Assembly: GCA_031260865.1 (NCBI GenBank)
Contig: JAISKQ010000116.1
Location: forward strand, 1-12,613
DNA: 12,613 nucleotides
Source: Prevotella sp.
GTDB lineage: Bacteria; Bacteroidota; Bacteroidia; Bacteroidales; Dysgonomonadaceae
Direction of reading: 5' to 3'
In this document: positions 3,927 to 8,614 of the stretch, one piece after another
How positions within the stretch are numbered: the stretch's first letter is position 1
Layout of the letters: every line of letters begins with the position of its first letter
The notes under the pieces: generated by a model
Seen by the model: only the letters and a program-made list of their open reading frames with translations
Database searches by the model: none
What the model was told of the DNA's origin: nothing
Position numbers and translations under genes: made by a program

Positions 3927-5660
3927 TTATTCATTAATCAAAGAGAATAACTCTTCCGCCGCTTCTTTCGGTCCTTCTTTGGATTTACCGTCGATGGCCA
4001 ACGATGTATGTATTTCTCCGATTTGGGTTCCTGCTTTTTTCATGTCATTAAAATACGACCGGACAAGTTTTTCCGTTTTCTCACGTTCCTGCACAGGACC
4101 AAACGGATTGGCGAAATAGGATTTCACAAGTCCTTTTTCGGTGGTTGTACCCTTCGCGCGGCGTGCTCCGTCTTCAAATACGGAAATCGCCTCGTCCAAA
4201 TCGTCGTAGATGAGTATCTTCTTAACGGCCTCCTCGTAGTTATTCGCGTAAAGGAAGTAATCGATAGGGTATCCTTTTGAAATAACTTCGTATGTGGAGA
4301 TAGCGATTGTAACGCGCGCGTTTACCTGATCCATATTGGTGTATACCCCCCTGTCGAGCTGCGCGAAGGCATAAGCGGGATCAAGGTCGTCAACGCGGAC
4401 AAACGCCCCTATTTCTGTTCCATAAGCCTTGATAACGCCGTCTTTTTCTTTCTTCAGGTAACCCATGTCGTCAAAGATGACGCGCATGTGGCGGATATAA
4501 CTTTCGTTCAGGGTACGGAACGCTTCAAGGCTTTCCGATTTTCCGGCGCCGCTGTCGCCCATTATGATGATGTTGGACTCTTTGCCGTTGCGAAGCACGA
4601 TGTTCACCATCGCGCCGTGTATAGGAAGCCTGTTCTTCTCTATTTGTTTCACATTGTGCAAGGTAAGAAGCATCTTCTTCATATAGCCGAAATAGTCTAT
4701 ATCGTCGCAATAGTTCGCGTAGCCGATAAGAATATCATTTTTCTTGTCTTTATAGTAGAATGTACGTTTTTCGTCATATCCGTCCGGGTATCCGAACACA
4801 TAGATTATATCCGGTTTCTTACCGATGTATTCGCTTTCCGTCGCCAGTTCAAACAGGTTGGAAAGTCCTACGCCGTGTACCATAAAGTCTTTATGGAAAT
4901 AAACAAACGTAAGCATATTGCCTACTTTTACAGGAAATACAAACCAATCGTCTTCGTTCAGCACGATGTTCTCAATCGGGTTTTGTTGATGTTCCCGAAA
5001 TATGCCGTCGCGTGTGTTTTTTTTGGTATATGAGATATATGGCGGATGGAAGACAACTGTACTGATAAATGGTATGCCGGCAAGTCCTCTGTATTCCACC
5101 GGGCAATTCCAATTTACATCAGTCAATGTCAGCCCGGCGTTCGACCCGGCTGTCGATTGGCGGAAAATACGCGTTTCGCGCCCGTTTACAGTCGTTTGTA
5201 TCCTACGCCCTGTAGATAACACAAGGTCGTTGAACATGTCATTCGCCTGAATAAAACGCACATTCTGCAAGCCTTCGCCCAAACGGTTGTTCCTTACTAT
5301 CGTATAACGTTCCAACCTTTTCCAATAATCGAAAAGCAATTCGGTGACTTCAATAAACAAGTCCTTATCTTCAAAGAACTTAGAGTATTTATTATCAACG
5401 GCGATAACTTCATCAATGTCGAAAACAGTCAATAATTTAAAAACTTCTATCATAGAGTCAACAAGATTATCTTCAGAACCAAAATGTTCGGTATAGTAGT
5501 TGTATATCACTACTTCATCTTTCTTTAATACTTGTTTAATAAATGATTCGACCACGCGTCTAAAACCATAGCTATTGAGAAGCTTTTGCTTTGTGTCACA
5601 GTATTTCAACGTGAAATTAATCATTGCCCGTCCTCTCGAAAGCGTAAATTCATGTAACAT
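3927..5660 (-). CDS. Conserved PEP carboxykinase-like / HPr kinase-like P-loop protein of unknown substrate
   Basis: 577 residues. The C-terminal part resembles the HPr kinase/PEPCK nucleotide-binding fold: I-H-G-A-M-V at 347-352, Walker A G-D-S-G-A-G-K-S-E at 368-376, and V-I-F-D-D-M-G at 394-400, in the same order and spacing type as the H-G, G-x-S-G-I-G-K-S-E and V-A-D-D motifs of HPr kinase/phosphorylase. Family members are commonly labelled phosphoenolpyruvate carboxykinase because of this. The other 345 residues (M-L-H-E-F-T-L-S-R-G-R-A start, R-L-E-R-Y-T-I-V-R-N, G-E-G-L-Q-N-V-R-F) do not match classical PckA (about 540 residues) that I can recall, and I see no signal peptide. It is probably a cytoplasmic ATP- or GTP-dependent kinase-like enzyme; the phosphoacceptor is unknown. 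ATG at 5660 begins the motif expected at the protein's N-terminus. The gene appears monocistronic, with 186 bp to the GH3 gene. Confidence 0.8.
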   Translation of the reverse strand: MLHEFTLSRGRAMINFTLKYCDTKQKLLNSYGFRRVVESFIKQVLKKDEVVIYNYYTEHFGSEDNLVDSMIEVFKLLTVFDIDEVIAVDNKYSKFFEDKDLFIEVTELLFDYWKRLERYTIVRNNRLGEGLQNVRFIQANDMFNDLVLSTGRRIQTTVNGRETRIFRQSTAGSNAGLTLTDVNWNCPVEYRGLAGIPFISTVVFHPPYISYTKKNTRDGIFREHQQNPIENIVLNEDDWFVFPVKVGNMLTFVYFHKDFMVHGVGLSNLFELATESEYIGKKPDIIYVFGYPDGYDEKRTFYYKDKKNDILIGYANYCDDIDYFGYMKKMLLTLHNVKQIEKNRLPIHGAMVNIVLRNGKESNIIIMGDSGAGKSESLEAFRTLNESYIRHMRVIFDDMGYLKKEKDGVIKAYGTEIGAFVRVDDLDPAYAFAQLDRGVYTNMDQVNARVTIAISTYEVISKGYPIDYFLYANNYEEAVKKILIYDDLDEAISVFEDGARRAKGTTTEKGLVKSYFANPFGPVQEREKTEKLVRSYFNDMKKAGTQIGEIHTSLAIDGKSKEGPKEAAEELFSLINE

Positions 5661-5973: not shown

Positions 5974-6114
5974 ATCGATTCAACCCGAAAGGTTGTGGAG
6001 GATGGGGAAACAAGCTCATATCTCAACAAAAATGATTTTAACTTTTTATAACATAAATTACTGCCCCAAACGGCTAAAAACCGTCATCTCTTTTTTACAA
6101 AATTATCTATATAT

Positions 6115-6680
6115 GAGTTGGAAGTTTTGAGTAATAAGTTTTGAGTTTACAAGAAGAATAGTAGGAAGCGGTGTTACCCGAAAAGTGTTACTTTTGTCAC
6201 CTCTTTTTTAAATTTTGTAGTTTACAAGCTTGCAAGTGTACAAGAACGAAGAATGGTGCGAAGCGGTGATGACCGAAACTGTTACTTTTGTTACTTTTTA
6301 TAGTTTTGAGTTTACAAGCTTGCAAGTGTACAAGTTTACAAGGATGAAGAATGGTGGGAAGCGGTGTTACCGAAAAGTGTTACTTTTGTCACCTTTTTAA
6401 GTTTTGAGTTTACGAACTTGCAAGTGTACAAGTTTACAAGAACGAAGAATGGTGCGAAGCGATGATGACTAAAAGTGTTACTTTTGTCACCTTTTTGAGT
6501 TATGTAGTAAGTAATGAATTTTGAATAATGAGTTTACAGGAAAGAATGAAGAAAGAATAGCTCAAAGCGATGATGACTAAAAGTGTTACTTTTGTCACCT
6601 TTTTAAGTTTTAAGTTTTGAGTTTACAAGCTTGCAAGTGTACAAGTTTACAAGAAAGAAGGATGGCGCGATGCGGTGATA
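6115..6680 (+). repeat. Nested tandem repeat array: six degenerate units built from 7-mers, 8-mers and a conserved core
   Basis: Approximate units: 6115-6210, 6211-6300, 6301-6400, 6401-6496, 6497-6604 and 6605-6680 (last truncated). Each has up to three parts. First is a heptamer run RAGTNNN (GAGTTGG, AAGTTTT, GAGTAAT, AAGTTTT, GAGTTTA at 6115-6149). Second is an octamer run CAAGNNNN (CAAGCTTG, CAAGTGTA, CAAGTTTA; three more or fewer copies per unit). Third is a core of about 50 bp with GAAGAATGGTGCGAAGCGGTG and ending AAAAGTGTTACTTTTGTCAC plus CTTTTT. The shared GTTACTTTT starts at 6187, 6281, 6379, 6477 and 6585, giving periods of 94, 98, 98 and 108 bp. The core carries a dyad AAAAGT-GTT-ACTTTT in four units, broken in the second. 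No ORF runs through it. It is not a CRISPR array: there are no constant-length unique spacers. Function unknown. Confidence 0.9.
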
Positions 6681-6792
6681 CAAAGGGGCTTTGGAGACGA
6701 TAAAAAGAGATAAGCCTGTATTACTTATTTCTTTATACCATAAGGGGAAAGACTTTTTAGAGAAGATACTGGTGGCATATCCTAAGGAATAA
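6679..6792 (+). pseudogene. Decayed C-terminal fragment of an FkbM-family methyltransferase
   Basis: The + strand reads Y-KGALETIKRDKPVLLISLYH, then KGKDFLEKILVAYPKE and TAA at 6790-6792. This matches what I know of the end of FkbM (Methyltransf_21) proteins: L-K-G-A-x-x-T-I-K-x-x-K-P-x-L-x-I-S-x-Y-H-K-x-x-D-F. Only about 37 codons remain. The frame is closed by TGA (6676-6678) immediately upstream, where the repeat array begins, and there is no start codon or remaining SAM-binding part. The last bases overlap the 3' end of the convergent TIGR02757 gene by about 11 bp. It is therefore a gene remnant that was cut back to, or replaced by, the repeat array. The family call is from memory of the motif, not from a search. 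Confidence 0.55.
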
Positions 6793-7564
6793 TACACTTT
6801 TCCTCGATAGAGATGCCGAACAGGGCAAAATCGTATCTGGAAGGGTCGGCGGGGTCAAGTATCCGTAGGTTTTCCGTCAATTCCATCGCCGCTTTCCAAT
6901 CCGGCTTGTCGCGTTCTAATAAGCCTGTTTTGCGGGCGGTACGTTCCACATGGAGGTCGAGAGGGCAGATCAGTCGGCTTGGGTCGACTTTGTTCCACAG
7001 TCCGAAATCCACCCCTTTGTCATCGTCGCGTACCATCCAGCGCAGGTACATATTCAGACGTTTGCATGCCGACTTCTGAGCGGGAGAAGGAATGTGCTTC
7101 CGTGTACGATGTGGAGCATCGGGATGAGAAAAGAAGTAGCTCTGAAAATGATTGAGAGCGGATTCCACTTCCATATTCCATTCAGGGAAGAAAGCGTCTT
7201 CCAAGCTGTCATACAGGGAGTAGTGCCGTTTCATAAAATCGATGCAATAGAGCAGGTCGGTATCGTTGAATGTCCTGTGCTTAAAGCCCAACAGCTTTTT
7301 CAGGTCGGTATCGCTATGCGTTGTGATGAACAGATAAGGTGAATTGTTCATCCTCTCCGATAATTCGTCGCACTTGTTGATGATTGTTTTTCGTTGTCCC
7401 CAAGCGAATATAGCGGCGAAAAAGCCCATGATTTCGATGTCTTGCTTGACCGAAAAACGATGGGGAATACAAATTGGATCGTTGGGTATAAAATCGGGAG
7501 TATTGTATTGCTCTACCTTTTTGTCTAAGAAATCCTTTAAGCCGTAAATATCTATATTTTTCAC
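6782..7564 (-). CDS. TIGR02757 / DUF2400 family protein
   Basis: 260 residues from GTG 7564, close to the usual family length (about 255-260). Recognisable conserved stretches are K-V-E-Q-Y-N-T-P-D-F, N-D-P-I-C-I-P-H-R-F-S-V-K-Q-D-I-E-I, G-F-F-A-A-I-F-A-W-G-Q-R, then N-M-Y-L-R-W-M-V-R-D-D-D-K-G-V-D-F-G-L-W and R-L-I-C-P-L-D-L-H-V near the C-terminus. The family is helical and widespread in Bacteroidota with no established activity; a relation to helix-hairpin-helix DNA glycosylase-like folds has been suggested and is not proven here. An ATG at 7633 would add 23 residues, but the family homology starts after residue 24 and a promoter box lies within that extension, so GTG 7564, preceded by AAAAAGG, is preferred. 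No signal peptide, hence cytoplasmic. Confidence 0.88.
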   Translation of the reverse strand: MKNIDIYGLKDFLDKKVEQYNTPDFIPNDPICIPHRFSVKQDIEIMGFFAAIFAWGQRKTIINKCDELSERMNNSPYLFITTHSDTDLKKLLGFKHRTFNDTDLLYCIDFMKRHYSLYDSLEDAFFPEWNMEVESALNHFQSYFFSHPDAPHRTRKHIPSPAQKSACKRLNMYLRWMVRDDDKGVDFGLWNKVDPSRLICPLDLHVERTARKTGLLERDKPDWKAAMELTENLRILDPADPSRYDFALFGISIEEKCIIP

Positions 7565-7584
7565 TTGTTTACCTTTTTGGTGGG

Positions 7585-7592
7585 CAAAGTTA
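7585..7592 (-). promoter_or_regulatory. -7 promoter box for the TIGR02757 gene, decides the start codon
   Basis: TAACTTTG on the - strand matches the Bacteroidota consensus TAnnTTTG exactly. Transcription would begin near 7578-7580, downstream of the ATG at 7633 and about 15 nt upstream of GTG 7564. A clear -33 box is not evident at 19-21 bp. Confidence 0.55.
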
Positions 7593-7710
7593 CTAAAAAA
7601 TACAGGCTCTGTTATAAATGATAGAATAAGCAATATTAAGGAACTGTTAAAAAAAAGTTGGTTCTTGTGGGTAAAATTATCATATTAATACTTAATTTTA
7701 CTTCGTGTTT

Positions 7711-7744: not shown

Positions 7745-8614
7745 ATGTTATTAGAAGTTCTTTCTCCGGATAGTATCGATATATCCAGCGCGGCGGCGAC
7801 TGTATCAACGTTAGACCGGTTACTCAACCATCTGATTGATTTAGCTACCACGTTAGGCCTAAAAATAATAGCGGCTATTGTTGTCTTTATCATAGGTCGA
7901 TGGGTTATAGGTTGGTTGCGAAAGCTTATTAATCGTTTTCTGACGCGGCGGCATATAGAGAAAACCGTAAGCTCGTTTTTGGATAGTTTGGTAAATATAA
8001 CATTAAAAATCGTACTGCTTCTTCTAATAGTGAATATACTGGGCATTGAAACGACATCCTTTGCAGCTATATTGGCTGCTGCGGGTCTTGCCATCGGTAT
8101 GGCGATGAAAGATAATTTATCAAATTTTGCCGGAGGTGTTATGTTGTTGATCAACAATCCATTTAAAGTTGGCGATCGGATTGTTGTTCAGGGTATGGAT
8201 GGGACAGTGCAGTCGATAGGTATATTATATACCGTATTGCTGACCGCTGACAATATCACTATTTATGTTCCTAACGGTCCCTTATCGACAGGCAATATTA
8301 CGAATTATTCCGCGCAAAAGGAGAGGAGGGTTGACATTACCTTCAATATAAACTATGGAGCGGATGTGGATGTTGTGAAAAATATATTGAATACCGTTAT
8401 CGTGGAAAATAAGTTGATAAAAGACGATCCGGCGCCCTTTGTGGGGGTAACGCGTATCAACAACGGCAATATAGATGTTTCCATCAAAGCATGGGTAAAC
8501 AGTAGCGATTATACAACCGTGTCTGTCGATTTGAACGAGAGTATATACAAGGCGCTGACCGAAGAGGGAGTGTATGTTTCATCTACTGTCAGTGTGAGAA
8601 TGTTGAAAGATTAA
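7745..8614 (+). CDS. mscS: Small-conductance mechanosensitive channel, MscS family
   Basis: 289 residues, almost the same length as E. coli MscS (286). It would be a homoheptameric inner-membrane channel that opens under membrane tension and releases solutes on hypo-osmotic shock. Visible parts: TM1 about 36-56, TM2 about 83-100, and pore-lining TM3 about 104-135 with the Ala/Gly-rich pattern F-A-A-I-L-A-A-A-G-L-A-I-G-M-A-M-K-D. Then come N-N-P-F-K-V-G-D-R-I (137-146) leading into the beta domain, and Y-V-P-N-G-P-L-S-T-G-N-I-T-N-Y-S (174-189), the usual signature. The C-terminal alpha/beta domain spans about 193-285. It is divergent from the TIGR02757 gene, with 180 bp between the preferred starts, and stands alone; 124 bp separate it from the next lipoprotein gene, which has its own promoter. 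Start at ATG 7745 follows the 11-bp tandem repeat. Confidence 0.95.
   Translation: MLLEVLSPDSIDISSAAATVSTLDRLLNHLIDLATTLGLKIIAAIVVFIIGRWVIGWLRKLINRFLTRRHIEKTVSSFLDSLVNITLKIVLLLLIVNILGIETTSFAAILAAAGLAIGMAMKDNLSNFAGGVMLLINNPFKVGDRIVVQGMDGTVQSIGILYTVLLTADNITIYVPNGPLSTGNITNYSAQKERRVDITFNINYGADVDVVKNILNTVIVENKLIKDDPAPFVGVTRINNGNIDVSIKAWVNSSDYTTVSVDLNESIYKALTEEGVYVSSTVSVRMLKD

Follow-up and report, generated by a model that had tools for sequence, protein, structure and literature searches.

What fills a gap between two genes with short words repeated in register, and does any gene stand behind such an array? The question is raised by contig JAISKQ010000116.1 of assembly GCA_031260865.1 (12,613 nt; this whole stretch is hereafter called the window), where positions 6115-6680 hold tandem units of about 98 bp, composed of words of 7, 8 and 9 bp and mostly bearing a conserved double-nonamer core. 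The original prediction, made from the letters alone, treated the array as a peculiarity of a single locus, while the family to which it belongs extends through the whole genome and the genus, and the copies of this family that carry a gene for a protein resembling the phage terminase small subunit (TerS) had been missed. The explanation we favour, with moderate confidence, is that the array goes back to a dispersed Dysgonomonas element with a single TerS-like gene, of which it is a copy without the gene, amplified in tandem, and that the nonamer pairs are likely the binding sites of the encoded protein.

Gene-bearing copies and the gene-less array

Three copies of the TerS-like gene were detected in the genome of the window (2.54 Mb, 74% complete, 335 contigs). 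As determined by blastn, the left arm of the array matches the region just upstream of the gene with 92.6% identity over 81 bp in copy L320, 84.9% over 106 bp (from position 6010) in L318 and 81.8% over 132 bp (from position 5987) in L319. On the other side of the gene, the bases following the stop codon coincide with window positions 6116-6139 at 22 of 24 sites in both copies that could be checked, L319 and L304 (the third gene copy, L320, is cut by a contig end and was excluded from the junction comparison), and further 3' these two continue with words of this kind, with GAAGAATGGCGC...GATG and with a core. Since the upstream match runs to position 6114 and the post-stop match begins at 6116, the window array corresponds to a gene-bearing unit minus its gene. 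Its derivation from the TerS-like element appears highly probable; the gene may have been lost by deletion, or the unit may have been copied from an element that was already gene-less.

In many genomes, the leader, the gene and the nonamer pair recur together as one unit. The leader lies within 300 bp upstream of 57 of 66 TerS-like genes, as compared with 21 of 454 control open reading frames (ORFs), and a nonamer pair follows within 300 nt downstream on the same strand in 35 of 66 versus 10 of 454; on the opposite strand the respective figures are 0 of 66 and 1 of 454. The 66 are distinct genes out of 68, two with less than 250 nt of downstream sequence having been dropped, and genes were called throughout as mechanical ORFs. 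The patterns used for nonamer and leader were widened after the variants had become known, and the same widened patterns were applied to the control ORFs.

The TerS-like protein

The proteins found by searching for ORFs between leader and core include three from genome G003, about 230 aa long and related to one another, which match the Pfam family HTH_Tnp_1_2 and a PHROG terminase small subunit. The homology to TerS, seen both by sequence and by fold, covers the helix-turn-helix (HTH) region and extends beyond it (residues 1-123). No catalytic transposase domain was present among the Pfam, PHROG and NCBIfam matches, those to transposase families being confined to the HTH. The C-terminal tails of some of these proteins look as though translated from the same short words (KVKSEELKVEN, LKMKNEKLKMKND; L167, L273, L288).

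A single-protein search found the gene in 20 of the 25 genomes of the genus, with up to 20 matches in each, and a profile search in 33 of 101 genomes of the family, strongly in genera g1, g6 and g13. Within g1 and g6, the gene occurs in all 23 genomes with at least six cores and in 2 of 8 with fewer (Fisher's test, 4e-5, relatedness ignored); the latter group includes incomplete assemblies, namely five of six in g1 and one of two in g6. Furthermore, different TerS clades adjoin different nonamers within some single genomes.

Distribution and copy number of the repeat family

The host, predicted to belong to Bacteroidales, falls within that order in the genus Dysgonomonas. The array DNA matches at least 38 other contigs of the same genome, in which AAAGTGTTACTTTTGTCACC occurs 299 times with no more than one mismatch (reversed control, 0) and the double nonamer TGTNACNTTTGTNACNTTTT 503 times (reversed control, 0), the highest number recorded, followed by 301 and 261 in the next genomes. 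The double nonamer is present in 20 of 25 Dysgonomonas genomes and 4 of 6 genomes of the sister genus g6, and in none of 70 other genomes of the same family; of 394 other genomes sampled across the phylum, 5 contain it at 1-2 copies. Copy numbers vary hundreds-fold among species, and the favoured middle base differs across the five genomes tabulated.

The cores are intergenic and, in most clusters, lie 65-125 bp apart. The window and 38 other stretches of its genome, the latter picked for having matches so that array sizes are not a random sample, contain 39 clusters of at least three cores; the cluster size there ranges from 1 to 7 cores, most often 4 and 5 (gaps below 250 bp), and is 1-3 in samples of four relatives. 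Fifteen of the 39 stretches have a core less than 600 bp from a contig end. At the site of the window array, the loci of the ten nearest orthologues of the adjacent DUF2400 gene (76-84% identity) were compared. One core just after this gene, oriented as in the window, was found in D. mossii and in Dysgonomonas sp. 521, and none at the same position in the other eight; from this, the site is probably an old one that has expanded into the array of the window.

Among viral sequences, contig L410 (IMGVR_UViG_2795385464_000001) shows one core-pattern match (8173-8191) and a weak TerS-like match (1570-1800), and no direct repeat of at least 9 nt was found near terS of a Porphyromonas phage.

Architecture and signs of mobility

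A typical copy consists of the leader (TTTATCTATA; in the genome of the window, AAAATTATCTAATATA and its relatives), words of 7 or 8 bp and then at least one core. Related pairs of copies in genome G005 are similar from the leader to just beyond the last core and dissimilar outside. The closest G005 copies form four pairs (L198/L199, L205/L206, L212/L213, L215/L216), each of two neighbours facing opposite ways and 7-25 kb from each other, as though local inversion or gene conversion acted between them. In genome G036, nine gene copies have a common left end, and six of them a common right end as well; ungapped identity averages 0.70 and 0.77 on the inner side of the ends and 0.29 and 0.26 on the outer side, the left edge being imperfectly sharp (0.55 in the 15 bp just before it). 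These copies carry no nonamer core and terminate in AAAAAACGTTCTTTTAA: the leader and the gene are constant, and the 3' end differs among genera.

Terminal inverted repeats were sought as well. Four inverted pairs of at least 11 nt occur within positions 6025-6700 of the window, all internal, and none joins the array ends; of two G036 gene copies, L370 shows a weak AT-rich pair across the gene (15 nt, 80%), and the other has none. A miniature inverted-repeat transposable element (MITE) with terminal inverted repeats is thus not supported; moreover, no catalytic transposase domain was matched in the parent copies. In L370 and L374 of the same genome, a block following the gene is bounded by inverted repeats of 20-25 nt (80-95% complementary) which involve the right-end sequence of the gene. 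In the genome of the window (L318, L319, L065, L074), gene copies and some of the arrays are followed by a further repeated block (GTCGGGCGTCAGCCAACGCC, CGTTTAGCCTTTAAGC). Other short-word repeats, CGCAAAGACGCAAAG, CACTGAGGTTCACTGAG and GTCATGCTGACGAA, share gaps with the family in G005 and at other loci of the genus (L198, L203, L099, L307), which suggests a common word-growing process.

Organization of the array in the window

Features of the array are collected in Table 1, where cores are matches to the 20-bp AAAGTGTTACTTTTGTCACC with up to four substitutions.

Table 1. Components of the repeat array, in window coordinates
Feature	Position	Strand	Basis
Left arm and leader, ending in AAAATTATCTATATAT	6035..6114	+	blastn against TerS-like gene copies
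Junction, first heptamer words AGTTGGAAGTTTTGAGTAATAAGT	6116..6139	+	matches bases after TerS-like stop codon
Units in tandem, each with AGTNNNN heptamers, AAGNNTAC octamers, a word like GAAGAATGGYGCGAAGCG, a core and a T-run; five complete, a sixth core-less	6140..6679	+	
Core 1, double nonamer TGTTACTTT/TGTCACC	6182..6201	+	0 mismatches
Core 2, AAACTG variant	6276..6295	+	3 mismatches
Core 3	6374..6393	+	0 mismatches
Core 4	6472..6491	+	0 mismatches
Core 5	6580..6599	+	0 mismatches
Sixth unit, core-less	6608..6679	+	local alignment to an earlier full unit

The six units and the spacings of 94, 98, 98 and 108 bp given by the original prediction were reproduced, but a core is present in only five units. 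Similarly, the predicted right edge held, while the left one has to be moved upstream, since other copies in this genome are homologous from about position 6035 onwards. The two-level periodicity survived comparison with 500 dinucleotide shuffles of positions 6114-6680, self-matches exceeding the background at lags 7 (z = 5.2), 8 (6.5), 9 (2.9), 16 (6.6) and 98 (11.3); lags 5, 6 and 10 were slightly under background in the same interval, and lag 14 reached a z of only 1.8. The 98-bp period was found independently by TRF. A purely heptameric repeat of the cyanobacterial type (STRR) was rejected on account of these periods (7, 8, 16 and 98) together with the conserved core. The suggested change of copy number at the locus is borne out by the identity of units: 20% of 160 within-array pairs exceed 90% identity as compared with about 1% of 2500 sampled between-array pairs, which fits slippage or unequal recombination at each locus.

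The proposed core dyad and the small RNA hairpins expected from it did not stand. In one of the five window cores and in 92 of 164 counted across the stretches retrieved from this genome, AAACTG replaces AAAGTG, so that the dyad is broken, and four window units folded no better than shuffled sequence (z of +0.4, -1.1, -1.1 and -1.0); on both grounds, an RNA hairpin is not supported.

The array is flanked by a DUF2400/TIGR02757 gene (6782-7633, minus strand) and a 577-aa ORF (3927-5660, minus strand), the orientation of both being opposite to that of the array. The latter ORF gave sub-threshold P-loop and HPr-kinase-like matches and nothing stronger.

Origin and possible role of the arrays

According to the favoured explanation, the TerS-like protein made from the few gene-bearing copies would bind nonamer pairs both in cis and in trans, and gene-less copies so bound would spread and persist, the cutting or copying activity being supplied from elsewhere, by the host or by a phage. 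After seating, slippage or unequal recombination would raise the number of units, so that a locus mostly has 3-6 cores packed closely together in the contigs sampled from this species, as compared with 1-3 in the four relatives sampled. Judging from the linkage described above, the nonamers are probably recognised by the TerS-like protein; that this protein mobilises the gene-less copies in trans may be the case, and we put it forward tentatively. Among the guesses of the original prediction, a selfish repeat and a protein-binding array are still the best ones.

The following observations weigh against this explanation. The DNA-binding domain of TerS from phage SF6 has little sequence preference in binding, even for its own repeats, according to the part of the published account available (PMC4737164). 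The structure model of the protein is confident mainly for residues 1-160, Foldseek against PDB returned nothing at an E value of 0.001 or better, and no nuclease partner was found. Ten genes flanking five copies comprise eight of ordinary chromosomal families and two unmatched, with no large terminase or phage gene. As many as 31 of the 66 TerS-like genes have no nonamer pair within 300 nt; G016 has five gene matches and G036 ten, both with no core, the G036 copies ending in a different sequence (G004, with one weak gene match, has no core either). The test of co-occurrence of gene and core ignores relatedness, and several genomes with neither are incomplete metagenome-assembled genomes (55-82%). 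The link between HTH and repeat is not one-to-one, as TGTTAC goes with different clades in G003, and HTHs that resemble each other adjoin TGTCAC in one and TGTTAC in the other of two genomes (L306, L302), and such a link could be produced by recent duplicates and plain linkage. By eye, no evident target duplication was seen in the flanks of the six two-ended G036 units. Finally, the draft genome is fragmented, and array sizes may be misassembled in view of the 15 of 39 stretches near contig ends.

Several other explanations were considered. The arrays might be regulatory, with the core serving as a site for the TerS-like protein or another regulator upstream of promoters, controlling or insulating the downstream gene and kept for this use. 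In 800 kb of G003, which were selected blind (a separate orientation sample of 60 stretches was selected for having the core), 26 gaps bear cores, of which 16 point in the gene direction, 2 against it and 8 are divergent, and none of the 47 convergent gaps has a core (two-sided p of 0.0013 for 16 versus 2 and 0.034 for convergent gaps). Besides, TAnnTTTG, the -7 promoter motif, shows enrichment 40-240 bp past the last core; for example, one 40-bp bin at 20 G005 loci contains 11 of them, where the background is 0.027 per locus and 40 bp. The window array, however, opposes both its neighbours, the distances from core to promoter are widely variable, the downstream genes differ, and copy number is hundreds-fold different between species; we regard a regulatory role as unlikely. 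The absence of cores from convergent gaps speaks also against a transcribed element, in which the leader would act as a promoter carrying an rRNA-type boxA, and the core would be a terminator or the end of a non-coding RNA, as a terminator should favour such gaps. A boxA-like TCTTTGA does occur in the 120 nt following 12 of 19 leaders in G005, 11 of 39 in G003 and 5 of 14 in G011 (reversed control, 0), and the boxA-like word GTTCTTTGAAATATTGA, found about 35 nt past the leader in many copies of these three genomes, resembles a word in 16S rRNA leaders (rRNA loci L278-L287). Yet the boxA-like word is absent from all 27 leaders in the genome of the window and all 6 in G017, and cores commonly have an inverted partner in G017 alone (17 of 20 with the upstream half, 11 complementary), not in G000 (the genome of the window), G003, G005 or G011, which makes a transcribed element very improbable. 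A passive minisatellite of STRR or STAR type, growing by slippage in AT-rich gaps with an incidental link to the TerS-like gene, would account for the word periods of 7, 8 and 9 bp, the expansion of units within arrays and the relatives with similar words, but hardly for the fixed leader and core, the gene-bearing copies with the same ends and the co-occurrence of gene and core, and is considered rather unlikely.

The remaining explanations involve phages or another mobilising enzyme. A lone phage-type small terminase gene with a pac-like site, residing in the chromosome free of any phage, may have shed hundreds of gene-less arrays which act as packaging starts, and would then represent a new class of minimal mobile element; the arrays would then start packaging for passing phages or gene-transfer agents, and the element would spread via packaged stretches of chromosome. 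In phage SPP1, the pac site includes direct repeats around the start of the small terminase gene, as far as the available text states (PMC4737164), and the likeness lies in a TerS-kind HTH protein with direct repeats adjoining its own gene; in our case, however, there is no large terminase or phage, the repeats lie 3' of the gene and hundreds of copies are gene-less, and we hold packaging to be an unlikely function. Degenerate prophages, with the TerS-like genes being phage leftovers and the arrays leftovers of packaging sites, are suggested by the homology of the protein to phage TerS, but the flanks of five copies contain no phage genes among ten and one compact unit recurs at many sites, so such an origin seems most improbable. 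A REP/RAYT pair or another repeat mobilised by a Y1 transposase is barely credible: although three Y1_Tnp genes are present in the genome of the window, one of them about 0.75 kb from an array on the same contig, Y1 genes occur in just 10 of 25 genomes of the genus, none was found in G019 (301 cores), G012 (171), G007 (128), G017 (83) and G005 (50), and G013, with four of them, has no core. REP/RAYT is accordingly disfavoured, the Y1 partner being missing from repeat-rich genomes and a conserved palindromic hairpin being absent.

Comparison with known repeats and significance

REP/RAYT systems consist of many gene-less repeats and a few gene copies flanked by the same sequences; the family described here works alike, as it does like a MITE and its parent, but its partner is a TerS-like HTH protein rather than a Y1 transposase, and it has no conserved hairpin. 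Cyanobacterial STRRs are tandem heptamer words in gaps, whereas heptamers here are only one module beside octamers, a fixed word and the double-nonamer core. The nearest described repeats are BrickBuilt and STAR. BrickBuilt, a MITE of Porphyromonas gingivalis, is, in the part of its description available, likewise an intergenic element of Bacteroidales with a leader, tandem repeats of variable number and a narrow host range, and has a 23-nt unit, IS5-like terminal inverted repeats and 19 copies (PMC4596501); our family differs in the units of about 98 bp built of 7-, 8- and 9-bp words, in hundreds of cores and in the TerS-like gene of intact copies. STAR of Staphylococcus comprises interspersed intergenic direct repeats, which expand and contract in number and are abundant in some species only, and the available part of the report mentions no encoded protein partner (PMC3532100). 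With STAR our family shares a short conserved core, variable spacing and intergenic position. The STAR core itself is GC-rich and probably differs from the one found here. Membership of the array in a known repeat, insertion-sequence or attC family, which would have refuted the original prediction, was not indicated: no Rfam family reached the gathering score, no DNA match was obtained in phage and plasmid collections, and no Dysgonomonas repeat family or solitary TerS element appeared among the top literature matches (titles and abstract starts; open papers).

Arrays lie near many contig ends (15 of 39 stretches), and the family therefore affects how such genomes assemble. Dispersed non-coding repeats with few gene-bearing parents are known, but those parents carry transposases, whereas the parent gene here encodes a solitary protein of the phage-packaging type, and the repeat types track HTH clades within single genomes. 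This makes it testable how intergenic repeat families are kept up, and whether a DNA-binding protein that is not catalytic can drive one. If the repeats are packaging sites, they would bear on the movement of chromosomal DNA by transduction in gut bacteria; if the protein recognises the repeats, the element and its TerS-like protein would together be an unfamiliar kind of genomic parasite.
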